Below, piece by piece: positions 14,908-30,995 of a stretch of DNA of 64,000 nucleotides (its first letter is position 1; each line of letters opens with the position of its first letter). Source of the stretch: Comamonadaceae bacterium OS-1 (lineage in GTDB: Bacteria; Pseudomonadota; Gammaproteobacteria; Burkholderiales; Burkholderiaceae_C); the NCBI GenBank assembly GCA_027923965.1, contig AP026969.1, positions 4,030,001-4,094,000 of the forward strand, read 5' to 3'. The notes under the pieces are model-generated. The model ran no database searches. It was not told the DNA's origin and worked only from the letters and a program-made list of their open reading frames with translations. The position numbers and the translations under genes were made by a program.

Positions 14908-16032
14908 ATGACCACGATGATGATGGAAGTTGAATACGAGCAGCCCGCACCCGATGCAAGCCAGGGTGCCACCTGCGCCCCGCGCCACGCCTGGGCCCGG
15001 GTGCCCGTGGAGCCCAGCCCCAGCGAACGCCTGGCGCTGAAAGACCGCATCCGCCGCCTGCTCAAGGAGCGCAACGCGGTGATGGTGTCGCACTACTACG
15101 TGCACCCCGACCTGCAGGACCTGGCCGAAGAAACCGGCGGCCTGGTCAGCGACTCGCTGGAGATGGCCCGCTTTGGCCGCGACCACGCCGCGCAGACCCT
15201 GGTGGTCTCCGGCGTGCGCTTCATGGGCGAAACCGCCAAGATCTTGTCGCCCGAAAAGCGTATCCTCATGCCCGACTTGGATGCCACCTGCTCGCTCGAC
15301 CTGGGCTGCCCCAGCGCCGAGTTCAACGCCTTTTGCGATGCCCACCCCGACCGCACCGTGGTGGTTTACGCCAACACCAGCGCCGAGGTCAAAGCCCGCG
15401 CCGATTGGCTGGTCACCTCGGGCTGCGCGCTGGACGTGGTGCGCGCCCTGAAAGACCAGGGCCACAAGATCCTGTGGGCCCCCGACAAGCACCTGGGGGC
15501 CTACATCCAGAAGGAAACCGGGGCCGACATGGTGTTCTGGAACGGTGCCTGCATCGTGCACGACGAGTTCAAGGCCTTCGAGCTGCAAGCCCTGAAGGCC
15601 GAGCATCCCGAAGCCAAGGTGCTGGTGCATCCCGAATCGCCCGCCGACGTGATCGCCCTGGCCGATGCCGTGGGCTCCACCTCGGCCATCCTGGCGGCGG
15701 CGCGTACCCTGGATGCCACCACCTTCATCGTCGCCACCGACAACGGCATGCTGCACAAGCTGCGCACGCAAAACCCCGGCAAGGTCTTCATCGAGGCCCC
15801 CACTGCCGGTAACAGCGCCACCTGCAAGAGCTGCGCGCACTGCCCCTGGATGGCCATGAACGGCCTGGCCGGGCTGGCCCAAGTGTTGGAGCTGGGCACC
15901 AACGAAGTCCACATCGACCCCGCCCTGGGCCTGCGTGCCCGCCTGCCCATTGACCGCATGCTGGCTTTCACGGCGGCCCTCAAGAACGGCCAGCCCACCA
16001 CCGGCCTGGTGCCGAACATCGGCGCGGCCTGA
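14908..16032 (+). CDS. nadA: Quinolinate synthase
   Basis: 374-residue [4Fe-4S] enzyme condensing iminoaspartate with dihydroxyacetone phosphate. Visible are [32 protein letters not shown], and cysteines in [21 protein letters not shown] and [13 protein letters not shown], which include the cluster ligands. The N-terminus has about 25 extra residues, including a Met-rich start. The stop TGA overlaps the pabB ATG by one base. nadB, which supplies the iminoaspartate, is 13 kb away at 29400. Confidence 0.95.
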
Positions 16033-17753
16033 TGGAGGGCATCACCGCGCTGATCGACTTTGCCGACCCGCACGGTGGGGAGCGGGTGCGCCATGCGTTT
16101 GGCACACCGCTGCAGACGCTGGTGGCGCACACGCTGGAGCAGGTGAAGCCGCTGCTGGATGCCGTGCAGGCCGCGTCGGCACAGGGGCAGTGGTGCGTGG
16201 GCTATGTGCGCTACGAAGCTGCACCAGCATTTGACTCGGCGCTGAAGGTCCATCCTGCCGACGGCCCGCTCGCCTGGTTCGCAGTGTTTGACACCCCCCT
16301 GCCCTGGCCCGAACCCAGCACCGCCAGCGCGCAAATCGACTGGCACAGCTTCATCCCCAGGCCCGACTTCGACGCGGCCATGGACGCGCTGCACCAGGCC
16401 ATCCGCGCAGGCGAGCTGTACCAGGTGAATCTGACGGCGCAAATGGCAGGCGACTTCCAAGGCGACCCGCAGGCCCTGTTCGCCGCGCTGCAGCGCGCCC
16501 AGCCGGGCGGTTATGCGGCGCTGCTGGACACCGGCGATGCGCAAATCCTGTCCGTCTCGCCCGAGCTATTTTTCGACTGGCGCGACGGTGCCATCCTGGC
16601 CCGCCCCATGAAAGGCACGGCCCGCCGGGGTGCGGATGCGCAGGAAGACGTGGCCCTGTCGGCAGCGCTGCGCAGTTCGCCCAAGGAGCGGGCCGAAAAC
16701 GTGATGGTGGTCGATCTGCTGCGTAACGACATTTCGCGCATCGCAGAGCCCTTCAGCGTGCAGGTGCCGCGCCTGTTCCACACCGAGGCGCTGCCCACGG
16801 TGTGGCAAATGACCTCCGATGTCACCGCCCGCACCCGGCCCGGCTGCACGCTGGCCCAGGTCTTTGCCGCGCTATTCCCCTGCGGCTCGGTCACCGGCGC
16901 GCCCAAGGTGCAGGCCATGCGCATGGTCAAGGCGCTGGAGCCCACCCCGCGCGGCGTGTACTGCGGTGCCATCGGCGTGGTGCAGCCCGGTGGTGCCACC
17001 ACCTTCAACGTGCCCATCCGCACCGTCACCCTGCGCGGAACGCAAGCCCGCTGTGGCATCGGCAGCGGCATCACGTCCGATGCCCAGGCCGAAGGCGAAT
17101 GGCAGGAGTGGGCCGCCAAGCAGGCCTTTGTGCAGCGCGCCAGCGCGCCGTTTGCGCTGCTGGAGACGCTGGCCATGGTGGACGGCAGCTTGCGCCACCG
17201 CGAGGCCCACCTGGCCCGCATGCAAGCGGCGGCGGCGCACTTCGGCACACCATGGAATCTGGAACACGTCCACCAAACCCTGCAAGCCATCGCCCGCCCC
17301 CAAGGCGCATGGCGCGTGCGTCTGCTGCTGGACGCGCAAGGCCAGGCCACGGCCGAGGCCTACCCGCTGGAAGCCAGCCCGGAGCGCGTGCGCCTGCAGC
17401 TGGCCGACCGCCCTTTGCTGGAAGCGCACAGCGAATTCGTCCGCTTCAAAACCACCCGCCGCGCCCACTACGATGCGTTCACCCCCACCCAGCCGGGCGT
17501 GTTCGACACCCTGCTGTGGAACACGGCCGGTGAAATCACAGAATGCACGCGCGGCAACATCGCCCTGCGACTGGACGGTCGCTGGGTCACCCCGCCGCTG
17601 GCCTGCGGGCTGCTGGGCGGCATTGGACGTGCAAACGCCCTGCAAGCAGGGCGTTTGGAAGAGGCAGTAGTGCGGGTAGCCGACCTGCCGCAGGTAGAAG
17701 CCCTGGCCTTCGTCAACAGCCTGCGTGGCTGGTTGGCGGCAGACCTGGGCTGA
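16032..17753 (+). CDS. pabB: Fused aminodeoxychorismate synthase I / lyase
   Basis: 573 residues in two parts. Residues 1 to about 380 are the chorismate-binding PabB domain. Its PMKGTARRG motif has the Lys that distinguishes aminodeoxychorismate synthase from anthranilate synthase, and it carries FPCGSVTGAPK and GIGSGITSDA near the end. From about 385 on there is a class IV PLP-dependent PabC-like domain (ETLAMVDGSLRHREAHLARM, GEITECTRGNIAL). Together they make 4-aminobenzoate for folate, needing a separate glutaminase PabA. It overlaps nadA by 1 nt. Confidence 0.9.
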   Translation: MEGITALIDFADPHGGERVRHAFGTPLQTLVAHTLEQVKPLLDAVQAASAQGQWCVGYVRYEAAPAFDSALKVHPADGPLAWFAVFDTPLPWPEPSTASAQIDWHSFIPRPDFDAAMDALHQAIRAGELYQVNLTAQMAGDFQGDPQALFAALQRAQPGGYAALLDTGDAQILSVSPELFFDWRDGAILARPMKGTARRGADAQEDVALSAALRSSPKERAENVMVVDLLRNDISRIAEPFSVQVPRLFHTEALPTVWQMTSDVTARTRPGCTLAQVFAALFPCGSVTGAPKVQAMRMVKALEPTPRGVYCGAIGVVQPGGATTFNVPIRTVTLRGTQARCGIGSGITSDAQAEGEWQEWAAKQAFVQRASAPFALLETLAMVDGSLRHREAHLARMQAAAAHFGTPWNLEHVHQTLQAIARPQGAWRVRLLLDAQGQATAEAYPLEASPERVRLQLADRPLLEAHSEFVRFKTTRRAHYDAFTPTQPGVFDTLLWNTAGEITECTRGNIALRLDGRWVTPPLACGLLGGIGRANALQAGRLEEAVVRVADLPQVEALAFVNSLRGWLAADLG

Positions 17754-17755
17754 AA

Positions 17756-17813
17756 ACTATCGTTTTGATAGCTGCTTGTGCTGACTCCATCGGCACGGGA
17801 GGCCCATTTAATG
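17756..17813 (+). repeat. Family A repeat after pabB
   Basis: ACTATCGTTTTGATAGCTGC, then TTGTGCTGACTCCATCGGCA, then GGGAGGCCCATTTAATG. The left hairpin is intact; the AATAAGCGC half has decayed. It begins 3 nt after the pabB stop, between convergent genes. Confidence 0.6.
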
Positions 17814-17836
17814 CATAAATTGGCCCTGTCCCCAGC

Positions 17837-19978
17837 TTAGCGCTCGTAAGCCACAAACTTCAGGTTGTTACCCCCTGTGGAAGTAACCACCCAGTTGGTA
17901 TCGTCAAACACATTGACCCAGCCATAACCACTGGTCACGATGGGCAGGGTGTACTTGCTGCGGGGCAGTAGCCAGGTGACATCGGTCAGCGAGGTGGGGT
18001 TGTTGGCCACAAACGTGCTCAGGCCAAACAAATTGGTACTGCTGCTCCAGGTGGTCTTGATGCGGCGCTGGTTGAAGTCGGCAATCTGGGACATGGTGTA
18101 CCAGTTGAAACGACCGCCGTTCTTCAGGTTTTCAGCCCGGTTAACAAAGGTTTTCAACACATTCAAGTGGTTGCGCACACCTGGGGGGTGGTTGTAGAAC
18201 AGGCGGTTGGTGCGGTTGTTGACCACAAAACTTTGCAAGTCCACCAGCCACTGGGCCGATTGCCCATCGGTCACACCAGTGTCATCAAACTCCTCGAAGG
18301 TGGCCGAAACGCCACGGGGAGATACCGGCAAGGCCCACATGGTGTTGGCGACACGTGCACCGCTGCGCCATTCACGGGTGGATGCCGTGCCGGTGTTGCT
18401 GGCCGAATACATGCCCACAACGCCGTAGCTTTCCAGCCACTTGATAGCCCACAACGGATTGTTCCCCATGGGTGCCGAATACGAGCGGCTCTGCTTGCCC
18501 ATGACGTTCTGCACCACGCCGACGTTGGCCTGTACCCAAGGCAAATAGGTGCTGGCATTGGTCTCGTTGGCGTTTGCGCCATAGATGTTGTGTATCCAGC
18601 CACCATGGGCACCCATCTCGTGCGTCAGGCTGCCGTTCGGGCGACCGATGTAGCGCACCAGCGCTTGGCCGGAGGGGTTATTCGCCAGGTTCATGCCCTC
18701 GCCGTCGCCGATTACGTTCACATCCGGACCTGCCGTGAATTCAAAGTTGAACGGGCCTTTGCCTTGCATGAACCACTGGCCCATGACATAGCCCAGGTCG
18801 CTATTCAGCGCCTGTCCGTCATCCACGTGCCAGTCGTAGACCAGGCCGCCCACACCCTTGGGCTGAACGGATATTTGCGGCATGACCACCTGGTCACGTG
18901 CGAAGTGGTTCAGGAAGCCGTGCAACAGCATGCCGTCGGATCCCACGGCGGTGAAGTAGCCCAGGGGGATGTTGACAAACAAAACCTTGCCGTTGCCGTA
19001 GGTACGCTCGCCGGCGACCAGGCCGTGGTCTGGCGATGACAGGAACACGTTGCCTGGAAAGGTGCCCGTGGTCACGTAAGAGTAGTAGCTCAGCGATGCA
19101 AACACATAGCCGCTGATGGTTTGCAAGGACTTGTCGTCTTCGGTCAACTGGGTAGAGACCCAACCCGTGGGTTTTTCTTGCCAGTAGCTACCGGTGCTAT
19201 CTACCGTGGCCCCCACATCGTCGGAGTAGCGGTACGGGTAGCTGCCGGGCTGGCGCAAAGCGGGGGTGGCCGAAGCCACGCGTTGGTCGTAACGCAGCGG
19301 ATTGAATGGCTGCGACCAGCCATTGCGGGCCCGGCCTTCCACCATGGCACGCATCGCATCCGCACCGCCCGGGTCCAACCGGCTGGTCGGCACAAAGGCG
19401 GTGGTCGCCGCAGCCACCGTGGGGGCGACGTAGGGCAGATATTTGCCAGGCGGCACCAGCAGATTGGTCAAGCGGGCCTTGCTGCCCACGATGGGGCCAA
19501 AGCCCACCACGCGGTCACGCAGGGCTTCGTACTGCACGTAGTCCACGCCCACCATATCGGAGAAGCGGGACTTGCCCGACAGGGCGTAGAAGCCTCCGTC
19601 GGTGAGTGCACCGGCATCGTAGGTCAGCATCAATTTTCCGCCGCCCGACACGTACTGCTTTACTGCCGCCACCAGCGCGTCACTGGCCTGGATGTGGGCG
19701 CTGTCGGGCATCACCAGTCCGGCAATCTTGCTGGCGGCTGTGGTGCCCAGTGCCAGGAAGGCCGAGTCGGTGATGGTCTTGATTTGGATGCCCTCCTCGG
19801 CCGCGGCATCGGTCCACACCTGGACCTGCCAGCTAGTGAGAACTGCGTTGTCGGGGATGAGCAGCGTCAGGTTGTCGCGCGAGGGCGCGGCCCAGGCAGA
19901 AGCCGTGGCCGCCGACAAGGCCACCAGGGCGAATGACACAGCCGCAAAACGCCGCCGCGCAAGAGAAAACAATTGCAT
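17837..19978 (-). CDS. Periplasmic polysaccharide-deacetylase-like protein (paralogue 1)
   Basis: 713 residues, last gene of the exopolysaccharide operon. A signal peptide is cleaved probably near AWA (about 27). Residues about 30-370 form an alpha/beta region resembling class I amidotransferase-type folds. The C-terminal half looks like a carbohydrate esterase family 4 (NodB) fold: WHVDDGQ near 381 (two aspartates), HGGWIHN near 456 (two metal-type histidines), YSAPMGNNP and a late HPPG. It would N-deacetylate an amino-sugar polymer in the periplasm. The layout recalls PelA, but I cannot show homology. GGAGG sets the ATG at 19978, 51 nt after the preceding gene. Confidence 0.6.
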   Translation of the reverse strand: MQLFSLARRRFAAVSFALVALSAATASAWAAPSRDNLTLLIPDNAVLTSWQVQVWTDAAAEEGIQIKTITDSAFLALGTTAASKIAGLVMPDSAHIQASDALVAAVKQYVSGGGKLMLTYDAGALTDGGFYALSGKSRFSDMVGVDYVQYEALRDRVVGFGPIVGSKARLTNLLVPPGKYLPYVAPTVAAATTAFVPTSRLDPGGADAMRAMVEGRARNGWSQPFNPLRYDQRVASATPALRQPGSYPYRYSDDVGATVDSTGSYWQEKPTGWVSTQLTEDDKSLQTISGYVFASLSYYSYVTTGTFPGNVFLSSPDHGLVAGERTYGNGKVLFVNIPLGYFTAVGSDGMLLHGFLNHFARDQVVMPQISVQPKGVGGLVYDWHVDDGQALNSDLGYVMGQWFMQGKGPFNFEFTAGPDVNVIGDGEGMNLANNPSGQALVRYIGRPNGSLTHEMGAHGGWIHNIYGANANETNASTYLPWVQANVGVVQNVMGKQSRSYSAPMGNNPLWAIKWLESYGVVGMYSASNTGTASTREWRSGARVANTMWALPVSPRGVSATFEEFDDTGVTDGQSAQWLVDLQSFVVNNRTNRLFYNHPPGVRNHLNVLKTFVNRAENLKNGGRFNWYTMSQIADFNQRRIKTTWSSSTNLFGLSTFVANNPTSLTDVTWLLPRSKYTLPIVTSGYGWVNVFDDTNWVVTSTGGNNLKFVAYER

Positions 19979-20029
19979 AAAAAAACCTCCAAAGTGAAGT
20001 GAAGAAACCAATAACGAACACGAGAACAC

Positions 20030-21319
20030 TTACAAACCAGTCCCCCCCGGCGCGGGCACGGGGTCGGCCAACCACAGCAGCCACTGCAAATCCGCCACCT
20101 GGAACGGCCAGGCAAACGGCGCATCCGGGCGCATCCAGGCGCTGCGGGCCCGGGCGACCCACGCCGCTGCAGCCGTGTCGTCACCCACGCAGCGCGCGGC
20201 CACCGCTACCGCAGGCCACCAGAAACCTTCCGGGTCCACATTGCGCTGCGGCCAACCCGCCGCCCCTTGCCACGGCGCGACCGCTTGTTTCCACACGGCT
20301 TGGGCACGCGCCGCGGCAGCAGGGCCCTCGGGAGGGGTGGCTGTAGCTGTAGCTGTAGCTGTAGCGGTGGCGGTGGCATCCATCCACAGCAGCGGCCAGG
20401 CCTGGGCCACGGTGTCGGGGTACCAGTGCCGGAAGTCGGGCTTGGCGGCATCCAGGCTGACCCGCCAGGTGTGGCTGGGGGCGTGCCAAAGGTTCTTGTG
20501 GATGGCTGCATCGGTGCGCTGCGCCATGGCCAGGCTGTTCTTGGCCGCCTGGGGGATGCCGTAGATGTCGCGCTGGAGCTGCGCCCAGGCGCGCCAGCCC
20601 GCCGACACCTCCACCGCATCCATCAGATAGGCCACCTGGTGGTCGGGCTTGGCCCAGGGCAGGCCGTTGGGCTGGGTGAGCCGCGCCAGGGTGGCCGCAG
20701 CCTCTTCCAAGGCCCGGCGCAGACTGGGTTCCCGCAGCAAGGGGCTATCGGGCACCGCCTGGGCGTAGGCCTGGGCCATCAGCAACAACGCTGCGGCCGT
20801 GCTGTCATAGGCATCCACCTGGGGGCACGCGCGCGGACTTTTGCCGGGTGGACAGGTGGACTCCTGCAAGTCACCGGCCCGCACCCAGTGGTCGAACACG
20901 ACGCTCTCGGACGGTCCGGTGGGGGTAGTATGCGCAGCCTGCCAGCGCAGCCACTGGGCCGCGGTGGGTGCGAGCGCAGGGTTCACCCGCAAAGCCCCGA
21001 TCAAGCCCAGATTGACCTGGTAAGCCGATACGTAGTGCCATACCCCGCCCTGCGGGTCCAGGTGTGCAGGCGAGTGGTGCACCTTGATGGCACCGTCGGC
21101 ACTTTTGCCGGGGGCGCGCACCACCAGCCGGTCCAGCGCCTGCAAGGCCGCATCCCTAAACGCGGCATCCACCAGTGCCCCCGGGCGGCACGCCGCTGTA
21201 CCGGCAGGTGCATCGACGGCCCCCGCAGCACCTACCCAGACCGCCAGCGATACCGTCACCGATACCGCCACCGATACCGCCACCGATACCGCCAGCTTGC
21301 ACACCGCAGGTTTACGCAT
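20030..21319 (-). CDS. Exported alpha/alpha-toroid-like carbohydrate enzyme, putative
   Basis: 429 residues with a signal-like N-terminus whose core (VAVSVAVSVTVSLAV) is encoded by a 12-bp tandem repeat. The rest is helix-rich with aromatic motifs such as VWHYVSAYQVNLGLIGAL, VDAYDSTAAALLLMAQAY and FRHWYPDTVAQAWPLLWM, the style of six-hairpin glycosidases or polysaccharide lyases. It would trim or degrade the exopolysaccharide in the periplasm. A (Ala-Thr)n run near residues 315-328 comes from a 6-bp microsatellite. The ATG overlaps the upstream gene by 8 nt. The enzyme class is inferred from general pattern only. Confidence 0.55.
   Translation of the reverse strand: MRKPAVCKLAVSVAVSVAVSVTVSLAVWVGAAGAVDAPAGTAACRPGALVDAAFRDAALQALDRLVVRAPGKSADGAIKVHHSPAHLDPQGGVWHYVSAYQVNLGLIGALRVNPALAPTAAQWLRWQAAHTTPTGPSESVVFDHWVRAGDLQESTCPPGKSPRACPQVDAYDSTAAALLLMAQAYAQAVPDSPLLREPSLRRALEEAAATLARLTQPNGLPWAKPDHQVAYLMDAVEVSAGWRAWAQLQRDIYGIPQAAKNSLAMAQRTDAAIHKNLWHAPSHTWRVSLDAAKPDFRHWYPDTVAQAWPLLWMDATATATATATATATPPEGPAAAARAQAVWKQAVAPWQGAAGWPQRNVDPEGFWWPAVAVAARCVGDDTAAAAWVARARSAWMRPDAPFAWPFQVADLQWLLWLADPVPAPGGTGL
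20335..20376 (-). repeat. Microsatellite, 6-bp units coding Ala-Thr
   Basis: On the plus strand CTGTAG occurs four times (20341-20364), followed by two CGGTGG units. They translate in frame to an alternating Ala-Thr run inside the toroid-like protein. Unit gain or loss would keep the reading frame. Confidence 0.85.
21249..21296 (-). repeat. Tandem repeat, 12-bp units in the signal peptide
   Basis: GATACC recurs at 21249, 21261, 21273 and 21285, alternating with GTCACC/GCCACC. It encodes the Val-Ala-Val-Ser repeats of the signal-peptide hydrophobic core. Changes in copy number would lengthen or shorten the core in steps of four residues. Confidence 0.85.
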
Positions 21320-22145
21320 GTGCCGCCCCTGGCATTTTCCAGCCCATGGCCCAGCCGTAGATCGCTACAAAGCCGATGATGTCCAGCATCACACCAAACA
21401 GCAGATGCAGCAGCGGCATCACCAGCAGCCCCATGTGCTGGACCAGGGCCACATGCAGGGCATATTGCAGCGGGGTCAGTACCAACAAAAACAGCCAGCT
21501 CAGCAGCGTCACCAGCACGCGCTGCCACAGCGCAAACGGAAACAGGTAGTAGGTGGCGAAGTGGATCCAGGGTGCCAGCAGCATCAGATGCCAGGCCTGG
21601 CGCAGCCCGCTGCCGGTGTGCAGGTCCACCGAGTGCGGGAAGCTGGCGGGCCAGAACAGGAAGAACAACACCGATGCGCCGTGGATCAGCACCGCAAAGC
21701 GCAGCAGATAGGCCACCGGCTTGGCCGCATCCGACATCCGCCCTGCGGCCCACCACACGCACAAGACCACTAAAGCGTGCCACACCGGCACCCAGCCATT
21801 GGGGGCGGCTAGCTGCACGTCGATGAAGGGCACGGCCAGCGCCAGCGCGCCGTCACCCCCGCGCCCTTGCACGTCAAAGTGCCCGGGCAGCTCCAGCGCC
21901 CGCAGCCACCACACGATCTCCACCGCCCAGGCCTGCGCCACCCAGGGGCGCAGCACCAGCAACAACGCGGTCAAGCCGCTCGCCAGGACCAGGCCCACCC
22001 ACAGGCGTTGCAGCGGCAGGTGCAGGCGCGAGATCGCCCGGTGCTGCGCAATCGCGCCGCCCAGATGGCCGCGCAGGTGCAGGCCCAGGATCGGCCTCCC
22101 AGGCGTGGCGGGGTGGGGGTGGTCGGTCTGGTGGGGCTTGGACAT
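21312..22145 (-). CDS. Six-TM inner-membrane protein of the exopolysaccharide operon
   Basis: 277 residues with a His-rich cytosolic-type N-terminus and about six membrane helices: LWVGLVLASGLTALLLVL, WHALVVLCVWWA, LRFAVLIHGASVLFFLFW, LMLLAPWIHFATYYLFPFAL, LLSWLFLLVLTPLQYAL and the last at about 245-270. Several helices carry histidines. No known family was recognised. Its place between the YaiO-like barrel and the toroid-like gene suggests a role in polymer modification or export. AGGA sets the ATG at 22145; a GTG at 22160 overlaps the preceding stop. Confidence 0.6.
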   Translation of the reverse strand: MSKPHQTDHPHPATPGRPILGLHLRGHLGGAIAQHRAISRLHLPLQRLWVGLVLASGLTALLLVLRPWVAQAWAVEIVWWLRALELPGHFDVQGRGGDGALALAVPFIDVQLAAPNGWVPVWHALVVLCVWWAAGRMSDAAKPVAYLLRFAVLIHGASVLFFLFWPASFPHSVDLHTGSGLRQAWHLMLLAPWIHFATYYLFPFALWQRVLVTLLSWLFLLVLTPLQYALHVALVQHMGLLVMPLLHLLFGVMLDIIGFVAIYGWAMGWKMPGAAHA

Positions 22146-22153
22146 TGCCAGTC

Positions 22154-22981
22154 CTACCACTGGGCAAACAGTCCCACACCCAGGGTTTTACGCTGGTAGG
22201 TGGGGTTGCGGTAGTGCTCGGCCTGGGCGGTAAAGCCCCACTGCGGGCCGATCCACTGCCGCCAGGTGGCACTTTGGCTGCGGCTGCGGAAGTTGACCAA
22301 CTGGGTCTGCAAGCCGATGGCCTGGTAGGCCTCGGAGCCGCTGGTGGCGCGCAGGCTGAGGTATTGCTGGCCCGCGCGGCCCACAGTGGCGCTCACGTAG
22401 GGCATCGCGGAGTGGACGCGGCCCGGCTGGCTGACGTTAAAGGTGGTTCCCGCCTCCAGCACCGCAGGCAGCACCGTGGGCAGTACCGCAGGCAGCTCTG
22501 TGTACCAGGTGGCGGCCAGGCGCAGCCCGGAGTCACTGCGGCCCGCATCGAACTCGGCCCGGTACAGCGCCGCCGAAGTCACCAGTTGGCGCTGCTCCAG
22601 CCATTTGGTGGAGACCTGCGCATCGGCCCGCGCATTGGCCCAGTTGGGGCCGCCATTGCCGCCCACCAGCGTGCCCGTGGCGAACCAGTCCGGACCCAGG
22701 GTTGCGGTGTAGGCCAGTGCCACGACACCGCCCTTGGCACCGAATTTGCGCTCCTGCATCAGCTCGGCATTCAAGCTGCTGCCTTGCGGCAGCGCCACGC
22801 TGGCACGCACCGACAGGGATTCACCGTCCGGTAGCCCCGCGGTCAGCTGGCTGTGGGTGGCGGCCACATCCCAGACCACCGGCGGCAAGGCTTGCGCCCG
22901 CACTGCGCCAGTGCCCAGGGCCAGGGTCAGGGCCAGGGTCAGAGCCAAGCCGCCCCCTGTGGAGATGGGGTTTACACGCAT
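22154..22981 (-). CDS. YaiO-like outer-membrane beta-barrel
   Basis: 275 residues with a signal peptide cleaved probably after VRA (about 28). The body is made of alternating amphipathic strands rich in aromatic and Gly residues and ends GVGLFAQW with a C-terminal aromatic, the mark of outer-membrane barrels. The pattern resembles the YaiO family, which in Escherichia coli lies beside a glycosyltransferase (YaiP) and a deacetylase (YaiS). It could be the outer-membrane exit or anchor for the polymer. Two in-frame tandem repeats lie in the gene. It overlaps wecB by 10 nt. Confidence 0.6.
   Translation of the reverse strand: MRVNPISTGGGLALTLALTLALGTGAVRAQALPPVVWDVAATHSQLTAGLPDGESLSVRASVALPQGSSLNAELMQERKFGAKGGVVALAYTATLGPDWFATGTLVGGNGGPNWANARADAQVSTKWLEQRQLVTSAALYRAEFDAGRSDSGLRLAATWYTELPAVLPTVLPAVLEAGTTFNVSQPGRVHSAMPYVSATVGRAGQQYLSLRATSGSEAYQAIGLQTQLVNFRSRSQSATWRQWIGPQWGFTAQAEHYRNPTYQRKTLGVGLFAQW
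22458..22493 (-). repeat. Tandem repeat, three 12-bp units (LPAV/LPTV)
   Basis: Units AGCACCGCAGGC, AGCACCGTGGGC and AGTACCGCAGGC stand head to tail. They encode the LPAVLPTVLPAVL segment in the middle of the outer-membrane barrel, probably a loop. Confidence 0.75.
22914..22946 (-). repeat. Tandem repeat in the barrel's signal peptide
   Basis: CCAGGGCCAGGGT and CAGGGCCAGGGTCAG form about 2.5 units of 12 bp, encoding the LALTLALTLAL hydrophobic core. It is the same kind of signal-peptide repeat as at 21249. Confidence 0.75.
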
Positions 22982-24249
22982 GTGGGGCTTTCCAGGTCGC
23001 TGGTGGAGGCGGTGTGCGGGGTGTGCGGGGTGTGTGGGATGTGTGGGATGTGTGGGATGTGAAGGTGCAGGTCACGGGCCAGCACATCGGCGATACGGGC
23101 GGCGGTCTGCCCATCGCCAAACGGGTTGACAGCCTGGCGCATGCACTCCAGCAAGCGGCCATCGCCCAGCAGTTGGTCTACGGTGCGCACGATGCGCTCG
23201 GTGTCGGTGCCCACAATCATCCCGGCACCGGCCTCGACCAGTTCGGGGCGCTCGGTGGTGTCGCGCAGCACCAGCACCGGGCAGGACAGGGCCGCGCCCT
23301 CTTCCTGGATACCGCCCGAGTCGGTCAGGGCCAGCGCGCTGCGGTGCAGGCACCACAGCAGGGCCGGGTAGTCCAGCGGCGGGCACAGGGTGAGCCGCCC
23401 ACCCAGCTGCTCGGCCAGGCCGCCCAGCTCGGCGTGCACGGCATCGCGCACCGCCGGGTTGCCGTGGACCGGCCAGACCACGGCCAGGTCATCGTGCTGC
23501 AGGAGCAACTGGGCCACGGCACGGGCGATGTTGGTGATGCCTTCGCCCCAGTTCTCGCGCCGGTGGGCGGTGACGGTCATGAGTTGGCAGTGCGCCAGGT
23601 GGGGCTGTAGGGCTTGCAGTTCGGCAGGCAGAGCCAGCGTGCCATCGGCCAGCAACTGCTCCAGGCGGGCAGTGCCTGCCAGGGCGGCATCCACGGCGGA
23701 GTTGCCTACGGTGTGCACCGCAGGGGCGGGTACACCTTCTTTGGCCAGGTTGGCTGCCGCTCCGGCGGTGGGGGCAAAGTGCCAGCGGGCCAACCGGGCG
23801 GTGAGTTCGCGGTTCTTCTCTTCGGGGAAGGGCTCGCGCGGGTTGCCGGTGCGCAGACCGGCTTCCACGTGGCCAATCGGGATGTCCAGGTAGAAGGCAG
23901 CCTGGGCCGAGGCCAGGGTGCTGGTGGTGTCGCCGTGCACCAGCACCGCGCAGGGCTGGACCCGCTCAAACACCTCGGACAGGCCTTCGAGCAGCAAGGC
24001 GTTCAGATGCGCCAGGCTGGCGTTGCGCCGCTCCAGCACCACTTCGTGCTGGGGCTGGATGCCGAAGAAGGTGTACAGGGTGTCGGCCATTTCTCGGTGC
24101 TGGCCGGTGTGCACCCAGGCCACGGGCAGGCCGCGGCGGTGCAGCTCGGCGTACACCGGGGCCATTTTGATAATCTCCGGGCGGGTGCCCACTGAGATGA
24201 GGATGGGGCGCTGGGGAGGGCGCGAGTAGGCGAGGTCGGGGGTGGTCAT
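22972..24249 (-). CDS. wecB: UDP-N-acetylglucosamine 2-epimerase (non-hydrolysing)
   Basis: Converts UDP-GlcNAc to UDP-ManNAc in the cytoplasm. Catalytic landmarks are present: SVGTRPEIIKMAPV, VHGDTTST, HVEAGLRTGNPREPFPEEKN with the two active-site glutamates, VTAHRRENWGEG, and DSGGIQEE. 425 residues is about 50 longer than usual; the excess is a C-terminal tail with His-Ile-Pro/His-Thr-Pro repeats encoded by a 9-bp microsatellite. The ATG shares ATGA with the upstream deacetylase-like gene. Its presence suggests the polymer contains ManNAc or a derivative. Confidence 0.93.
   Translation of the reverse strand: MTTPDLAYSRPPQRPILISVGTRPEIIKMAPVYAELHRRGLPVAWVHTGQHREMADTLYTFFGIQPQHEVVLERRNASLAHLNALLLEGLSEVFERVQPCAVLVHGDTTSTLASAQAAFYLDIPIGHVEAGLRTGNPREPFPEEKNRELTARLARWHFAPTAGAAANLAKEGVPAPAVHTVGNSAVDAALAGTARLEQLLADGTLALPAELQALQPHLAHCQLMTVTAHRRENWGEGITNIARAVAQLLLQHDDLAVVWPVHGNPAVRDAVHAELGGLAEQLGGRLTLCPPLDYPALLWCLHRSALALTDSGGIQEEGAALSCPVLVLRDTTERPELVEAGAGMIVGTDTERIVRTVDQLLGDGRLLECMRQAVNPFGDGQTAARIADVLARDLHLHIPHIPHIPHTPHTPHTASTSDLESPTCV
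23012..23065 (-). repeat. Microsatellite, six 9-bp units in the wecB tail
   Basis: Units GTGTGCGGG (twice), GTGTGTGGG, ATGTGTGGG (twice) and ATGTGAAGG stand head to tail. On the minus strand they encode repeated His-Ile-Pro and His-Thr-Pro at the end of WecB. All unit changes keep the frame. Confidence 0.9.
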
Positions 24250-26219
24250 GGTTGTTTCAAAGGTGCGGAAAGGGGTTGGCTGGCGGGGACCGTCTGTGCA
24301 GGTGCCGTCTGTGCAGGTGCCATGTTTGCGGGTGCGATGTTTGTGGGTGACTGCAGGCGCAAGGTGGCCGAGTCCCCGGCCACCACACGCCAGTAGCTGC
24401 CGTCGTTATCGATCTGGGCCGTGCCTTCGAGCACGACGGGCTGGGCGTAGCGCTGCATCGGCAACAGCCAGGCCATATGGGCCAGCGATTGCGGGTGGCT
24501 GGCGCGGAGCTGCTGGGCTCCCGGAGTCTGTGTACCGGAGTCCTGTGCATCCGGGGTGATCGCCCACTGCACCTGCAGCCGCTGGTTGGCAAAGTCGGCG
24601 TACTGGGCCATGGTGATCCAGCGCAGGGTTTTGCTGCGCAGCAGGCTGGCCGTGTGTTGCATCCACTCCTTGAAGGCGAGCGGAAACATGGCGATGCCGG
24701 GGGGGTGGAAGTACACCAGGCGCACGGTGCGGTACTGGGCGCAGTAGTCGGCCACGTCTTTGAGCCAGGCGGCAATGTCGCGCTCGGACTGCTGCGCGGC
24801 CTGGGCGTCTTCAAAGGTGCCGTAGGTGCCGTAGCTGAGCACCGGGAAGGCCCACATGTCGCCCGGGCCGCGCTGTTCGCCCTGGTAGCTGCGGGTGGGG
24901 GCCATGCCGATGTCGCCGGTGGAGTAGTAGGCGCGGATGCCTTGGTTGTGCAGCCACTGGGTGACCCAGGCCGGGTGGTTGCCCACCGGGGCCGAGTATT
25001 CGCGCACGGGTTTGCCGCTGGCGGCCTGCACGCTGGCCACATTCTTTTGGATCAAGGGAATCGACACGGCCTGCGGTTGTTTGTCCACCTGCTGGCCAAA
25101 GGCGTTGTGGATCCAGCCGCCGTGGCTGCCGACTTCGTCACCACGCTCGGCAAAGCGGCGTACCCAGGCCTGCATGCGGGGGTTGTTATCCAGGTCCATG
25201 CCGTCGCCGTCGCCTTCGGTGTCCACGTCGGGTCCGGCAGTCAGGTCCACGGAGTACGGGCCTTGCTCGAAGATGCCCAGGGCTTGCAGCTTCTCCATCG
25301 CGGGCTCGGCTTTGGCCGAGTCGATGTGCCAGTTCATGATGAGCGCGCCTTGGGCTTCGGGCAGGGCCGAGAGCTGGGGCAACTGGGCCATGTCCTGCGC
25401 AAAGTAGCGCAGGAAGCTGTGCAGGAAGAAGCCGTCGGTGCGCAGCTTCAGGTAGCCCAGCGGCAGGTTGACGAACAGTACTTTGCCCTGGCCCAGGGTG
25501 TGCACCCCGGCCAGCAGGCCACCGCCTTCAAAGTGCATCAGGCGCTGGCCGTCAAACGCGCCGCTGGTGGCAAACACCGGGTAGCGCAAGCGCCCGTAGT
25601 TGTAGCTGACCACGGCCAGTTCTTCGTCGGCCTGGGGGGCGGGCTGGGTGCTGACCAAGGGGCTTTCGCTGCCTTCGCGCATGAGTTTGCCCGGGGGCAG
25701 GCGCAGCAGCGGCACCGCCGCGCCATCGACCCAGGCGACCTGTTCGCTGAGCATGTCCGGCCCGAGCTTCTCGTACAGCCCGTAGCCCACCCCGGCCAGG
25801 GTGGACAGGCGGGACTGTACGGGGTGGTAGTTGCCGTCCATGTCGGAGACACCGGCGTCGTGCACCAGCATGAGCTGTGCACCGGCCCGCACCCGGGCTT
25901 CCAGGTGGGCCACCAACGTGCTGTTCATTCGGCGGTGCACGGTGTCGGGCACTACCAGGGCGGCATCCAGCGGGTAGCCGCCCGGGCGCAGCAGGGCCGA
26001 GGCCCGTACCACGGCCAGGGGGAAGCCGGTTTCTGCCGCCGCGTCCTGCCAGGCCTGCACCACGGGGTCGTCGCTGGCCACGTCGTCGGGCACCAGCAAG
26101 GCCAGGTGGGTCAGTGCCGTGGCCTGGGGCGCACCCCATTGCCACCAGGCCCACAGCGCCAGCCAGGCCAGCAGGCCGGCCCCAATCGCTGCGCGCACTA
26201 TCCGCCACACGCCGGTCAT
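24246..26219 (-). CDS. Membrane-anchored deacetylase-like protein (paralogue 2)
   Basis: 657 residues, a paralogue of the protein at 17837-19978 along its whole length: the same LLVPDD start, GQGKVLFVNLPLGYL, TAGPDVDTEGDGDGMDLDNN, SHGGWIHN, YSAPVGNHP and FHPPGI. It has an N-terminal anchor helix (about 8-27) instead of a cleaved signal. The motif that reads WHVDDG in paralogue 1 is WHIDSA here, so the second aspartate, expected to bind metal in the NodB family, is a serine. It may be inactive or a binding or scaffold subunit. ATG at 26219 overlaps the upstream stop as ATGA. Confidence 0.6.
   Translation of the reverse strand: MTGVWRIVRAAIGAGLLAWLALWAWWQWGAPQATALTHLALLVPDDVASDDPVVQAWQDAAAETGFPLAVVRASALLRPGGYPLDAALVVPDTVHRRMNSTLVAHLEARVRAGAQLMLVHDAGVSDMDGNYHPVQSRLSTLAGVGYGLYEKLGPDMLSEQVAWVDGAAVPLLRLPPGKLMREGSESPLVSTQPAPQADEELAVVSYNYGRLRYPVFATSGAFDGQRLMHFEGGGLLAGVHTLGQGKVLFVNLPLGYLKLRTDGFFLHSFLRYFAQDMAQLPQLSALPEAQGALIMNWHIDSAKAEPAMEKLQALGIFEQGPYSVDLTAGPDVDTEGDGDGMDLDNNPRMQAWVRRFAERGDEVGSHGGWIHNAFGQQVDKQPQAVSIPLIQKNVASVQAASGKPVREYSAPVGNHPAWVTQWLHNQGIRAYYSTGDIGMAPTRSYQGEQRGPGDMWAFPVLSYGTYGTFEDAQAAQQSERDIAAWLKDVADYCAQYRTVRLVYFHPPGIAMFPLAFKEWMQHTASLLRSKTLRWITMAQYADFANQRLQVQWAITPDAQDSGTQTPGAQQLRASHPQSLAHMAWLLPMQRYAQPVVLEGTAQIDNDGSYWRVVAGDSATLRLQSPTNIAPANMAPAQTAPAQTVPASQPLSAPLKQP
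24286..24345 (-). repeat. Tandem repeat, four 15-bp units (Ala-Pro-rich tail)
   Basis: 15-bp units related to GGTGCCGTCTGTGCA are repeated with drift, encoding the APANMAPAQTAPAQTVPA tail of the second deacetylase-like protein. Confidence 0.75.
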
Positions 26220-27346
26220 ACCACCACCCCCAGCACTGCGGATGGGGACAGCTCTGTCCATGCAGCCTGGTCCGGCGCGGCATCGGCTGCCATGGTGGTC
26301 TGGCCTTTTTCTTCGGCCCAGAGGGTGCCGTAGACGGTGGCCCCCGGCGCGATGGCGAGGCGCGGCGCGGTGACAGTTGCCAGGGTGCCGGGCGCGCCCA
26401 CGGTGCAGTCGGACCCGAGCACGATCGCGGTCTCGGACAGGACCGAGCCCCGCACCACACATCCCGCGCCCAGGTGGATGGCTCCCCCGGCCACGACGTT
26501 GCCGCGGATGTAGCTGCCCGGGCCCACGTGCAGGTCGCCGCGCGCCTTCAGGCTGCCGTCTGCCTGGCAATGCCCGCCCAAGGCCAGGTCGGCCAGGCAC
26601 ACCACGTCACCGTGCCAGGCCCGCCGGGCCTCGATCTGCAGCGCAGACCGCGCAAAGGCGCGGCGCACCTGCGGGTTCCACACCACACCGGCTGGCCAGT
26701 CGCTGGGGGCCAAGGTGGTGGAAGTCCATTCGGTAGACACCGAATCGGTGAGCGTTTTGCGGGACGACTCCGCAAAGTCGATGCGCGGCGCATGCAACAG
26801 CATGAAGGACACTTGCGGCGCAACGCGCAGGGTGTGCTGGGCCGTGACCCGGCCGGCCAGGTGGCAGCCCGTGCCGACATGCACCTCCTGGCCATGGGCC
26901 CAGCGCAATACGGTGCAGAAGGGGGCCAGGGTGGCCCGGCCACCGGCCCACACGGCGCGGTAGAGGCTGTGCGCGGCCGTGTGCAGGTCGGCCGAGGCCG
27001 ATACTTCGGCATAAAAGCCCATGCCTTCGGGCAGCTGGACATCGCCCTCGATGTGCCACAGGCGGTCGGTGCGTCCAGCCGCCACTTCGGCCGCCAACAA
27101 GGTCACACCACCCACCCTACTCGCCTCATGCGCAATAACCGAGCCGCCCAGGTGCGTGGCTCCCGCCTGGACAGCCTCGGCCAGCAGGGCTGCAAAACGC
27201 TGGGCCAGATAGGGCGGGTCCAGGGCATCGGCCTCGTCGATCTGCAGCGGCACCACATCCTGGGGCCGCAGCCATTCCCGCAGCGCGGGGATCAGCGGCA
27301 CCGCCAGCACCGACACGGTCAGCACAACCAGCAAGGCCAGCATCAT
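26216..27346 (-). CDS. Membrane-anchored beta-helix (bactofilin-like) protein
   Basis: 376 residues. One N-terminal membrane helix (MMLALLVVLTVSVLAVPL) is followed by a middle region of unknown fold. A C-terminal third then shows short repeats with regular Gly and Val (DLHVGPGSYIRGNVVAGGA, IHLGAGCVVRGSVL, IVLGSDCTVGA, ATVYGTLWAEE), typical of left-handed or bactofilin-type beta-helices. It may scaffold the synthase in the membrane. It overlaps both neighbours by ATGA. No enzyme motif is seen. Confidence 0.55.
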   Translation of the reverse strand: MMLALLVVLTVSVLAVPLIPALREWLRPQDVVPLQIDEADALDPPYLAQRFAALLAEAVQAGATHLGGSVIAHEASRVGGVTLLAAEVAAGRTDRLWHIEGDVQLPEGMGFYAEVSASADLHTAAHSLYRAVWAGGRATLAPFCTVLRWAHGQEVHVGTGCHLAGRVTAQHTLRVAPQVSFMLLHAPRIDFAESSRKTLTDSVSTEWTSTTLAPSDWPAGVVWNPQVRRAFARSALQIEARRAWHGDVVCLADLALGGHCQADGSLKARGDLHVGPGSYIRGNVVAGGAIHLGAGCVVRGSVLSETAIVLGSDCTVGAPGTLATVTAPRLAIAPGATVYGTLWAEEKGQTTMAADAAPDQAAWTELSPSAVLGVVV

Positions 27347-28878
27347 GGGTGCATCTCTGCCGCGACCGGCGTGTGGGTAGATACGGGTATGGCTACAGGC
27401 ACCGGTGCGGGCATCGGTGCGGGCGTAGCCATAGATGCCGATGCCGACATCGCCGCAGCCGCCACCGGCACCGCCGCACGCCGGTAGCGCACGGTCTTGT
27501 CCCAGTGGAAGCCGCGCCCGGGCAGGCGGTCCCACAGCAGTTGCTCCAGCACCGACTGGGCGATGGCCACTGCGCTGACGATGAAGCCCATGAAGGTGAA
27601 GGCCAGCAGGTGGATGCGCTGGCGCGAGCGGTCCAGGTGGACGGCGGTGGCGATCTCGAAGAAGGCCGCAAAGTTGCCCAGCGCACTATGGGCCATGAAG
27701 GCGATTAACAGGAAGGCCGGGGCCAGCACCTGCATGGAGACGGTGAAGTACATCAGCAGGCTGAGCACCCAGCCAAACAGCAGGATGGGCGACATCATGT
27801 ACACGCCCAGCAACAGGAATCCGTCCACCCGCTCGGTCAGGCTGAGTGCGGGGTTGCGCAGCAAGGCCCCGCTATGGCGCACCAGGGCCTGGTTGTGGCC
27901 TTTGGACCAGCGTTTGATCTGGCGCATGCGCACAGCCCAGTTTTGCGGGACCTCTTCGTAGCATTCGGCCCGGTTGTGGTAGACGGTGAGCCAGCCCCCC
28001 AGCAGCAGCCGGTAGGTGAGGTCGGTGTCTTCGGCCAGTACGTCGTCGTGCCAGCCGCCCACCGATTCCAGGGCGCTGATGCGGATGCCGCCCACCGTGC
28101 CGCCGTATTGGGGGACCAGGCCCAGGTTCATGCGGGCTTGTTGGTCGACCTGGTAGCCGCCAGAGCGCTCCAGATCCAGCAGCCGGGTGAGCAGGTTGGC
28201 ACCGACGTTGTGCGGGACCACGCGGCCCATCACCGCGCCGACTTCGGGGTCGAAGAAGGGGGCCATGAGGCGGCGGATGAGGCCGCGTGAGGGCATGTAG
28301 TCGGCATCGAAGACGATGATGAAGTCGGTGTCGATCAGCGCCGTGGCATCTTTGAGGGCGGCGGCCTTGCCGGGCTTGCCGCTGACCCGGTGGAACGGGG
28401 TGATGCGCCCCGGAAAGCGCGCCACCACCGCATCAATGATCTCGCGGGTGCGGTCGCTGGAGCGGTCGTTGACCGGCATGATGACCATGCGGTCCGCCGG
28501 GTAGTCCACCCGCATCAGGTTCTCCAGGCAGTCCTGGATCACGTCTTCTTCGTTGTGCGCGGCCACAAAGATGGTCACCCTGGGCCAGTCGGCGCTGACG
28601 ATGCTGGCGTACGGGTGGCGTTGCTTGCCAAACAGCCGGTTCAGCGAGAACACGTAATGCCGCAGCGTGTACACCGTCAGCAGCACCATCACCAACCCCA
28701 TCAAGCCCACCAAACTCCACGCCCATACCGCACCGAATGGGCTCGCCAAGGCGTAGCCCATGCCACCGCCTGCGGCGGCCTGTGCGCCAGAGGCGGCGAA
28801 GCCAACCGCCAGCACCGTACGCAATACACCCATGGCAGCCTTAGCGAGCGGACGAGCCAAGGCAAGATAAAAAGTCAT
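27343..28878 (-). CDS. Processive family 2 glycosyltransferase (polysaccharide synthase)
   Basis: First gene of the operon, 511 residues. Two N-terminal membrane helices, a cytosolic GT-A domain and about four C-terminal membrane helices match the BcsA/PgaC/HasA class. The catalytic set is complete: VNDRSSD near 145, FDADYM (DxD) near 190, LAEDTDL near 250 and QIKRW (QxxRW) near 320. It would polymerise a nucleotide sugar and extrude the chain. No PilZ domain is seen. The Ala/Pro/Ser-rich tail is low complexity. The start at 28878 has no clear SD; ATG at 28833 (TAAGG upstream) is the alternative. Confidence 0.85.
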   Translation of the reverse strand: MTFYLALARPLAKAAMGVLRTVLAVGFAASGAQAAAGGGMGYALASPFGAVWAWSLVGLMGLVMVLLTVYTLRHYVFSLNRLFGKQRHPYASIVSADWPRVTIFVAAHNEEDVIQDCLENLMRVDYPADRMVIMPVNDRSSDRTREIIDAVVARFPGRITPFHRVSGKPGKAAALKDATALIDTDFIIVFDADYMPSRGLIRRLMAPFFDPEVGAVMGRVVPHNVGANLLTRLLDLERSGGYQVDQQARMNLGLVPQYGGTVGGIRISALESVGGWHDDVLAEDTDLTYRLLLGGWLTVYHNRAECYEEVPQNWAVRMRQIKRWSKGHNQALVRHSGALLRNPALSLTERVDGFLLLGVYMMSPILLFGWVLSLLMYFTVSMQVLAPAFLLIAFMAHSALGNFAAFFEIATAVHLDRSRQRIHLLAFTFMGFIVSAVAIAQSVLEQLLWDRLPGRGFHWDKTVRYRRAAVPVAAAAMSASASMATPAPMPAPVPVAIPVSTHTPVAAEMHP

Positions 28879-29399
28879 CGTGGAACAAAGTAGGTGAACG
28901 AAACCCCGCCCACCCTTGGAGCACACAGGACGGACCCCATGCAAGGCGGTACCGACGGGTGTGCCGCCTTTGAAAGTGGAGAGGATGGAATGCAGAAAAT
29001 GCCGCAGAGCTGAAGCCCGGCAGACAAACCAATAACTAACTACATTGACTTTATCAACATGATAAAAAATGTAAATGACATTTCTTAATGTAAATTGTGT
29101 ACAACGTGATTAATTTAACAATTTGCCCACCAAGAACAATCTGAAAAATTCACCCCCCGCCCACAACCGTCCAAATCGGTGCCTGAATGTGGGTGTGCAG
29201 TTTGCAATCAAAATTTACTTTTGCTATTCATTTTGAAGCAAACAATACAGAAAGGACTGGCGTACAGCGACATCCAGGCTCAAAAACTGGATAACTGGCC
29301 TGCGTTTGACACGGCGTGGCAGCCCCATCCCAAGGCCAAGACGGAGCACGCGTACGTGAGCCTTTTTAAGAAAGCAGGCTCAAAAATACTTCTCAAGAG
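28879..29399. other. AT-rich intergenic region, likely exopolysaccharide operon promoter
   Basis: About 520 bp without a convincing gene between the divergently placed ends of the GT2 gene (start) and nadB (stop). The part 29030-29170 is strikingly AT-rich beside GC-rich genes and contains a spaced direct repeat. A plus-strand frame of about 90 codons at 29179-29457 runs into nadB antisense and lacks family features. The base composition may mark a regulatory region or the edge of transferred DNA. Confidence 0.5.
29068..29095 (-). promoter_or_regulatory. Spaced direct repeat AATGTAAAT, candidate regulator site
   Basis: AATGTAAAT occurs at 29068-29076 and again at 29087-29095, 19 bp apart, about two helical turns. 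That spacing suits a dimeric DNA-binding protein on one face of the helix. It is about 190 bp upstream of the GT2 start. Confidence 0.3.
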
Positions 29400-30995
29400 T
29401 TACGATTTTTCCGGCACCAGGACCGTGGCTTCGGCTGTGGCGGCCAGCTCCGGGTAGTCACGGCTGAAGTGCAGGCCCCGGCTTTCCTGGCGGGCACGGG
29501 CGCTGCGCACGATCAGGTCGGCCACCTGGACCAGGTTGCGCAGTTCCAGCAGGTCGCGGGTGACGTGGTGGCGGGCGTAGAACTCGTCGATCTCGCTTTG
29601 CAGCAGGGCGATGCGGTGGGCGGCGCGGTCCAGTCGTTTGTTGGTGCGCACGATGCCCACGTAGTCCCACATGAAGCGGCGCAGCTCGTCCCAGTTGTGC
29701 GAGATGACCACCAGCTCATCGCTGTCGATCACCTGGCTGTCGTCCCAGGCGGGGAGCTGGGGCGCTGGGGCGCGGTTCACCGCGGCCATGGCCTGGGCGG
29801 CGGCGCGGGCAAACACCATGCATTCCAGCAGCGAGTTGCTGGCCAGCCGGTTGGCACCGTGCAGGCCGGTGCAGGCGGCCTCGCCCAGGGCGTACAGGCC
29901 GGGCACGTCGGTGCGGCCTTCCAAATCCGTCAGTACGCCGCCGCAGGTGTAGTGGGCAGCGGGCACCACGGGGATGGGCTGGCGGGCGATGTCGATGCCC
30001 AGCTCCAGGCAGCGGGCGTAGATGTTGGGAAAGTGCTCCAGCAAAAAGGCCTTGGGCTGGTGCGAGATGTCGAGGTAGACGCAGTCGAAGCCGCCCTTTT
30101 TCATCTCGAAGTCGATGGCGCGGGCCACCACGTCGCGCGGGGCCAGCTCGGCGCGCGCATCGTGTTCGGGCATGAAGCGGCTGCCGTCGGGGCGCAGCAG
30201 GCGGCCGCCTTCGCCGCGCACGGCCTCGGAGATCAAAAACGACTTGGCGTGCGGGTGGTACAGACAGGTCGGGTGGAACTGGATGAATTCCATGTTCGCG
30301 GCCCGGCAACCCGCGCGCCAGGCGGCGGCAATGCCGTCGCCGGTGGCGGTGTCGGGGTTGGTGGTGTAGAGGTAGACCTTGCCTGCGCCGCCGGTGGCCA
30401 GGATGGTGTTGGGGGCGCTGAAGGTGAGCACCTGGTCGGTATCCGCGTCCAGCGCGTACAGACCCACGCAGCCCTGCTGGGGCAGGCCGAGCTTGCTGCC
30501 AATGATCAGGTCCACCAGGGTGTGGTTTTCAAACAGGGTGATCTGCGGATGGCTGCGCACCTGGGCCATCATGGTGGCCTGCACGGCCGCGCCGGTGGCA
30601 TCGGTGGCGTGGACGATGCGGCGGTGGCTATGGCCGCCTTCGCGGGTCAGGTGCAGCGCGCCGTCTTCCTGCGAGAACGGCACGCCCAGGGACTGCAGCC
30701 AGGCGATGCATTCGGGCGCGTGCTCGACCACGAAACGGGTGGCCTCCACATCGCACAGACCGCCGCCCGCGACCAGGGTGTCGTCCACATGCGAGGCAAA
30801 GCTGTCGCCCTGGCCCAGCACGGCGGCAATGCCGCCCTGGGCCCAGGCGCTGGCACCGTCGGCCATACCGCGTTTGGTGAGCACTGCGACGCGGTGGGTG
30901 GGGGCCAGCAGCAGCGCGGCACTGAGGCCTGCCAGGCCACTGCCCACGATCAACACATCAAAATTCAGGTGGGTAGGAGCATCGGAAGCGGACAA
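29400..30995 (-). CDS. nadB: L-aspartate oxidase
   Basis: FAD enzyme converting L-aspartate to iminoaspartate, the first step of de novo NAD synthesis; 531 residues. The FAD-binding [17 protein letters not shown] starts at residue 14. Also present are [19 protein letters not shown], the flavin-covering [17 protein letters not shown], and [14 protein letters not shown] with [21 protein letters not shown]. The start is a TTG at 30995, one base after the kup stop, suggesting coupling with kup. Confidence 0.93.

Follow-up and report, generated by a model that had tools for sequence, protein, structure and literature searches.

A conserved six-gene core of a probable, apparently undescribed synthase-type exopolysaccharide system in Burkholderiales

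Five synthase-dependent exopolysaccharides were counted in a 2020 survey, which lists the parts of such systems as 'typically' present (PMC7112194). Two papers published in 2021 added the Nfr system of Escherichia coli, which consists of NfrB, NfrA, WecB (NfrC) and YbcH and makes the NGR glycan, the receptor of phage N4; its sugar was still inferred (PMC8669469, PMC8669472). N4 infection requires NfrB and WecB, and an inactive WecB is not sufficient (PMC8669472, PMC8669469). In species without another wecB gene, wecB adjoins nfrB, and N-acetylmannosamine (ManNAc) was proposed as the NGR monomer (PMC8669469). Here we describe an eight-gene operon of Comamonadaceae bacterium OS-1, a bacterium related to Rhodoferax. 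The operon lies on the minus strand, from 28878 to 17837 of a 64,000-nucleotide stretch of contig AP026969.1 (the window). It encodes a family 2 glycosyltransferase (GT2), a bactofilin-like protein, WecB, a YaiO-type barrel, a polytopic protein, an (alpha/alpha)6-toroid protein and two deacetylase-like proteins, A and B. The operon is real and conserved and, with a six-gene core, likely encodes an exopolysaccharide system of synthase type in the Burkholderiales that is apparently undescribed. The initial annotation had suggested that the system is undescribed, and this agrees with the titles and abstracts of the papers listed in searches of open-licence PMC, among which no account of the gene set was found, and with the different parts of the known systems.

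Every one of the 20 complete clusters, which came from 19 genomes or records, contained all six core families (GT2, bactofilin-like, WecB, YaiO, polytopic and toroid), indicating that their grouping in the operon is not due to chance. The GT2 and bactofilin-like genes were adjacent in every cluster. The gene order of the window was found in nine clusters (the window, L034 to L037 and L043 to L046, some with an extra gene) and was rearranged in 11, which favors selection on gene content over recent descent of one block. Homologues of the set thus recur together, and the absence of a conserved neighborhood, named beforehand as grounds for rejecting the system, did not occur. The deacetylase family was present within the cluster in 15 of the 20, elsewhere in the genome in three (L121/L040, L122/L042 and L125/L098) and not found in two (L123 and L124). 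The set of eight that had been proposed is therefore better described as a stable core of six, with deacetylases that are frequent but not universal. Two clusters cut by their contigs were kept outside the 20: L002 (4.4 kb) carried four genes of the set and L126 (3.8 kb, at a contig end) carried three. L001 and L003, judged by length to be the contigs of L035 and L046, were not counted again. Only a deacetylase-like gene is present at L040, L042 and L098; the genomes concerned carry their clusters at L121, L122 and L125.

The first profiles were built from 12 of the 20 loci. Because some toroid, polytopic and bactofilin-like members in L038, L039 and L041 had first been picked by place and look, the search was repeated with profiles from the nine closest loci against 1844 open reading frames (ORFs). 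The five non-toroid families were recovered in all 11 distant clusters, with E values from 1e-197 to 5e-9. Outside each family, the best ORF had an E value of 0.013 to 0.57; for GT2 it was instead E. coli YaiP (1.3e-11), PgaC being grouped with the GT2s in this tally. Five families are therefore secure in all 20 clusters, and the toroid family in 18.

Among the genomes sampled, protein A had relatives in 13 of 250 of the family, including the window's own genome. With alignment A1 (17 of 25 deacetylase-like genes, two from chosen in-frame starts), 44 of 349 genomes of the order matched, only five of them over most of the protein (G000, G087, G256, G265 and G527). Among the remaining 39, 38 matched only within model positions 415-583, around the CE4-like histidine motif, and G390 matched at 76-147. 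At the class level, 15 of 321 genomes matched A1, over the whole length in the own genome only. The polytopic protein was detected with A3 (11 of 12 rows) in 15 of the 250 genomes of the family and 6 of the 349 of the order, and with A4 (15 of 20 rows) in 4 of 299 genomes of the phylum, three being already-known Burkholderiales and the fourth, G1151, a weak match over 62 positions (E 8.3e-4). No full-length deacetylase or clear polytopic relative was found outside the Burkholderiales in the sampled genomes. All 13 deacetylase-bearing family genomes were among the 15 that carry the polytopic gene (hypergeometric p 6e-20, assuming that the same 250 genomes were drawn twice). A2 comprised 9 of 15 locus toroids and 7 of 120 listed proteins, and A5 comprised 20 of 21 rows (L045 was left out). 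The protein searches returned at least 163 toroid, at least 105 polytopic and at least 83 A4 proteins; only candidates sharing most words were scored, and these counts do not bound the families.

The cluster of Cupriavidus sp. P-10 is located on a 1.6 Mb plasmid, where it is adjoined by a gene for a galactose/glyoxal-oxidase-like kelch protein (L120, 18948-20975). Among 20 flanking ORFs scanned, CRP-type genes were found by two clusters and a PAS-GGDEF-EAL gene by one (L121, 6584-7303 and 14387-17002; L038, 16829-18304). A link to cyclic di-GMP is possible at these loci; the other flanking ORFs scanned show none, and such neighbors are too sporadic to claim regulation.

The GT2 carries the motifs AHNE, FDADY, AEDTD and QxxRW, which were found in all 21 cluster GT2s. 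Together with the transmembrane segments, they correspond to an inner-membrane processive synthase, a typical part of synthase-dependent systems. Among curated synthase models, PgaC/IcaA scored highest, but at 122.8 bits, far beneath its cut-off of 422.3, indicating that the GT2 does not pass as a PgaC equivalog. Among E. coli proteins, identity was 26% for PgaC (300 amino acids), 27% for YaiP (208) and 25% for NfrB (286; BLASTP E 1.0). A tree of the 21 cluster GT2s with PgaC, YaiP and NfrB was not used to place the references, since their branches of 8-10 changes per column made the placement meaningless. The WecB assignment was clear, with a TIGR00236 score above the cut-off of 210.15, and Pfam and NCBIfam profiles upheld the names that had been given to the GT2, WecB and YaiO proteins. 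WecB was encoded in every complete cluster although the host genome carries a third wecB besides those of its clusters, indicating a stronger linkage than that of wecB and nfrB in Nfr. WecG, the next transferase of the enterobacterial common antigen (ECA) type, had no match in the own genome. UDP-ManNAc is our best guess for the substrate, based on the constant presence of WecB and, by analogy, on the E. coli Nfr precedent. In L123, a gene of the glucosamine-6-phosphate isomerase/6-phosphogluconolactonase family (15617-16573) directly adjoins the GT2 gene.

The polymer might instead be based on N-acetylglucosamine (GlcNAc) or N-acetylgalactosamine (GalNAc), resembling poly-N-acetylglucosamine (PNAG) or Pel, with the UDP-ManNAc from WecB used for a minor unit or a linker only. 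The ranking of PgaC/IcaA among the synthase models and the identity to PgaC fit such a product, as does the match of the protein A model to PelA and Agd3, which covers most of the model, the polymers of these enzymes being GalNAc-rich (PMC7229062). We consider it rather unlikely. The PgaC score is far too low, a minor role would not demand WecB in 20 of 20 clusters, and no C4-epimerase family match was found among the eight proteins in Pfam or NCBIfam.

With moderate confidence, we propose that the operon likely encodes a synthase-dependent machine that polymerizes UDP-ManNAc, de-N-acetylates and trims the chain in the periplasm and releases it through YaiO. The operon's own WecB would supply UDP-ManNAc to the GT2, which would polymerize the chain while moving it across the inner membrane. 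Proteins A and B would then de-N-acetylate the chain in the periplasm, where the toroid protein would trim it by cutting, and the chain would leave via the YaiO barrel. The product would be a secreted matrix polymer of mannosamine type, in line with the ManNAc-containing, partly N-deacetylated polymer suggested in the initial annotation. The bactofilin-like protein, on the cytoplasmic face, may hold synthases together as a scaffold, and the polytopic protein may be the membrane partner of the synthase. PgaD or BcsB fills this place in other systems.

The predicted multi-domain fold of protein A bears on the deacetylase step. Structures were predicted for protein A and the toroid. The AlphaFold2 (AF2) model of A had a mean confidence score (pLDDT) of 86.1 and, with VIA-align, matched CE4 enzymes as well as PelA and Agd3, the latter two over model residues 29-627. 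GH42 enzymes and the fucosidase 6tvk likewise covered much of the model, with fewer residues (238-262). Across 17 aligned A- and B-type rows, H298, D300, H366, H371, Y408-P411 and H505 were conserved, and B carries the motifs YDWHVD, GAHGGWIH, YSAPMGNNP and NHPP. The DD base/metal pair and HxxxH of CE18 (Agd3-like) enzymes were not found in the sequence alignment, a comparison that did not involve 3D superposition (motif definition in PMC7229062). A search of PDB sequences with profiles A1 and A2 gave nothing under E 0.3. By model and by analogy, A and B are predicted to deacetylate the polymer, which would become partly cationic like PNAG and Pel. In L045 (5778-7769), stops interrupt gene A and leave two ORFs, with B and the other genes open; the split may reflect a pseudogene or an assembly error. 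In L098 (8395-12982), a lone deacetylase-like gene lies by a PEP-CTERM-tail-like protein and a sugar-phosphate-transferase-type gene, both recognized by eye; the core cluster of this genome is on another contig (L125).

Several results weigh against the proposed machine. Both deacetylase-like proteins fell below every curated cut-off (A scored 18.1 bits against PF01522, for which the cut-off is 23.1, and B had no PF01522 match). Their CE4-like motif is altered, with NWHxD and H-x4-H in place of DD and H-x3-H, and the relatives L099 and L120 lack the NWHxD spacing. Deacetylase genes were apart from the cluster or not found in five cases, indicating that deacetylation is not essential to the core. 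In the control search, the toroid was recovered in only 9 of the 11 distant clusters (L039 was missed and L097 gave E 0.068). A cyclic di-GMP-binding domain or a co-polymerase subunit is a typical part, but no PilZ, MshEN, BcsB or PgaD match was found among the eight proteins in Pfam or NCBIfam. A tetratricopeptide repeat (TPR) protein typically accompanies the outer-membrane pore; the YaiO barrel is present, but no TPR was detected at the Pfam level, and the barrel is on the small side for a pore. The absence of PilZ and TPR parts had been correctly noted in the initial annotation. The polytopic protein is without a known relative by sequence, and a single GT2 with WecB could make a mixed polymer. 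Since the listed parts are typical rather than defining, a missing part lowers the likeness, and the operon is treated here as a variant that would work in the manner of such a system. The polytopic protein could be an unrecognized co-polymerase-type partner.

Two of the same absences, those of a TPR and of a dedicated co-polymerase, together with the small barrel, would also suit a short glycan or glycolipid that is not secreted as a polymer. This appears very improbable, as the GT2 has QxxRW and transmembrane segments arranged as in processive synthases, the deacetylase and toroid proteins are predicted to be periplasmic, and an outer-membrane barrel is encoded. YaiO scored far above the TIGR04390 cut-off of 32, and its C-terminal aromatic residue was seen here and in 16 of the 20 clusters. 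Neither the polytopic nor the toroid protein matched a Pfam or NCBIfam family. The polytopic protein had been described as having six transmembrane segments, which is approximate: a simple hydropathy scan gave five in the window copy and three to seven in relatives. A second toroid gene was observed beside four clusters (L044, 14655-15941; L045, 14245-15531; L122, 10606-11709; L038, 4936-6168); judged by eye, the start resembles that of a lipoprotein in the L044 copy and shows an RR motif in the L038 copy.

The protein first described as a membrane beta-helix protein has the beta-helix and one transmembrane segment and is more precisely bactofilin-like, with its helix domain predicted to be cytoplasmic. 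The window copy passed PF04519 narrowly (30.1 bits against a cut-off of 27.9). PF04519 was detected at E<=0.01 in 18 of 20 cluster members, some of which scored below the cut-off, for example L120 with 22.2 bits. The best PDB sequence match was bactofilin 6ria (E 1.8e-4), with ice-binding proteins near behind. The charge pattern predicts that the helix domain faces the cytoplasm, beside the synthase. The protein shares the PF04519 domain and beta-helix with bactofilins but differs from them in its N-terminal membrane segment, in the conserved motif PAxxEWRRPxD and in its place in a polysaccharide operon.

A cytoplasmic scaffold that orders synthases, so that parallel chains form fibers, would also fit an anchored surface layer or sheath instead of free slime. 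The bactofilin-like protein is present in all 20 clusters and predicted to face the cytoplasm, and Sphaerotilus, which forms sheaths, is named as the source of two polytopic-protein relatives. However, the sheath genes proposed for Sphaerotilus-Leptothrix are wza, wzb, wzc and glycosyltransferases, and the sheath genes are called poorly understood there (PMC13386937). Bactofilin-type folds also have other roles. Rhodoferax and Cupriavidus, also named as carriers, are not known to us to form sheaths. We regard a sheath as unlikely. A bolder form of the proposed machine, in which the bactofilin-like protein arrays WecB-fed GT2s on the cytoplasmic face and a new cationic mannosamine polymer is spun as ordered fibers and leaves via the TPR-free YaiO pore, is speculative and, in our view, probably not correct in full. 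If true, such a cytoskeleton-based poly-ManNAc/mannosamine (ManN) factory would constitute a new type of synthase system. We know of no earlier synthase system with a bactofilin-type scaffold in the same operon.

The initial annotation had described eight genes between 17837 and 28878, and all eight ORFs were found there, on the minus strand (Table 1). The six junctions from GT2 through the toroid overlap by 4, 4, 4, 10, 7 and 8 bases. The statement that seven of the eight genes are coupled by short overlaps is right given the GTG start of the polytopic gene; its 7-base overlap with YaiO requires this start, and the alternative ATG would give an 8-base gap. Gene B begins 51 bases past the toroid gene, with GGAGG preceding its ATG. 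By reading, we take the genes at one flank to be nadA and an aminodeoxychorismate synthase gene, and those at the other to be nadB and a gene for a Kup potassium transporter (window 14908-17753 and 29400-32913). An Rfam scan of window positions 14000-33000 gave no match. A sigma-70 scan upstream on the minus strand gave two 9-of-12 sites at 29048-29088 (0.3 expected), which were set aside and not used.

Table 1. Genes of the operon, with positions in the window
Product	Position	Strand	Evidence
GT2 polysaccharide synthase, predicted processive, membrane segments N- and C-terminal of catalytic domain	27343..28878	-	PF13641 106.3 bits; PgaC_IcaA 122.8 bits; motifs; hydropathy
Bactofilin-like beta-helix protein, one N-terminal transmembrane segment, helix domain predicted cytoplasmic	26216..27346	-	PF04519; PDB sequence match; charge pattern
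Deacetylase-like A: N-terminal membrane segment, Rossmann/GATase-like, CE4-like and C-terminal beta domains	24246..26219	-	Alignment; AF2 model; VIA-align
WecB, non-hydrolysing UDP-GlcNAc 2-epimerase (UDP-ManNAc supply)	22972..24249	-	TIGR00236 371.7 bits
YaiO-type outer-membrane beta-barrel, candidate exit pore	22154..22981	-	TIGR04390 116.5 bits; PF19413 44.3 bits; C-terminal aromatic residue
Polytopic inner-membrane protein, no named family	21312..22160 (GTG start; alternative ATG 22145)	-	Hydropathy; cluster conservation
Exported (alpha/alpha)6-toroid protein, candidate periplasmic glycoside hydrolase or epimerase-fold enzyme	20030..21319	-	
Deacetylase-like B, paralogue of A, N-terminal hydrophobic segment, predicted exported	17837..19978	-	Alignment with A; motifs; hydropathy

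The genome of strain OS-1 contains a second complete eight-gene copy, L034, about 470 kb away (4529876-4540701 of the contig). Between the two copies, the synonymous divergence (dS) was 0.16-0.35 for the GT2, bactofilin-like, A and WecB genes and 0.56-0.79 for the YaiO, polytopic, toroid and B genes. Between the window and L035, from another genome of the genus, dS was 0.82-1.11 for the first four genes and 0.52-0.74 for the last four. The synthesis half thus looks homogenized and the export half does not, as after gene conversion. The ratio of nonsynonymous to synonymous divergence (dN/dS) was below 0.4 for all eight genes, indicating that both copies seem to be kept in use. The dS of the toroid pair L036/L046 (38 codons) was not used. 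Genes flanking the second copy at the L034 locus (4526000-4544500) encode a lytic transglycosylase and a histidine kinase with Cache- and PAS-like domains.

The initial annotation had named Pga, Pel and the yai locus as precedents; the closest for a GT2 with WecB, E. coli Nfr, was not among them. By analogy, Nfr is a real precedent for this pair: it combines a WecB-dependent GT2 synthase with an outer-membrane partner, and the operon pairs its GT2 with WecB and YaiO. The parts rule out identity, as NfrB has MshEN, NfrA has TPR and NfrA_C, YbcH has DUF4434 and none of these is in the operon, while the GT2 matched NfrB only at E 1.0. Unlike the operon, nfrBA-ybcH has no bactofilin, toroid, polytopic or CE4-like gene. 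NfrA_C (PF13283) was found in none of the 18 cluster genomes searched and was detected in the E. coli positive control.

Pga shares with the operon a GT2 synthase, a de-N-acetylase and an outer-membrane barrel, but PgaA, PgaB and PgaD had no significant BLASTP counterpart in the operon (best E 0.025), and the WecB, bactofilin-like and toroid proteins are extra. The yai locus (yaiO, yaiP and yaiS) likewise has a YaiO barrel, a GT2 and a deacetylase; YaiS, however, is a PIG-L protein unrelated to A and B, and no WecB, bactofilin, toroid or polytopic gene is present in the yai region examined. The likeness to Pel (PelA) and to fungal galactosaminogalactan (GAG; Agd3, CE18) lies in the modeled multi-domain fold order of the deacetylases. 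In the GAG system, too, the synthase is accompanied by epimerase, deacetylase and hydrolase enzymes (PMC7229062). The CM1/CM2 catalytic motifs of Agd3 are unlike those of A and B, and no PelF-, PelG-, PelB-, PelC- or GH114-type family was found among the eight proteins in Pfam or NCBIfam. Pga, yai and Pel are thus ruled out by their parts, and none of the E. coli pga, nfr and yai loci, compared directly, matches the set gene for gene. Two further candidates were rejected: a Rubrivivax PEP-CTERM/Wzy cluster, which also has a UDP-GlcNAc 2-epimerase and a deacetylase, has a different gene set (PMC3684757), and other genes are proposed for the Sphaerotilus-Leptothrix sheath (PMC13386937). Beside these systems, the cluster forms a separate line, with a constant core, an invariably present bactofilin-type partner and two unnamed protein families. 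It offers a compact, testable locus for ManNAc-based matrix polymers and bears on whether a bacterial cytoskeletal protein can organize an exopolysaccharide synthase.

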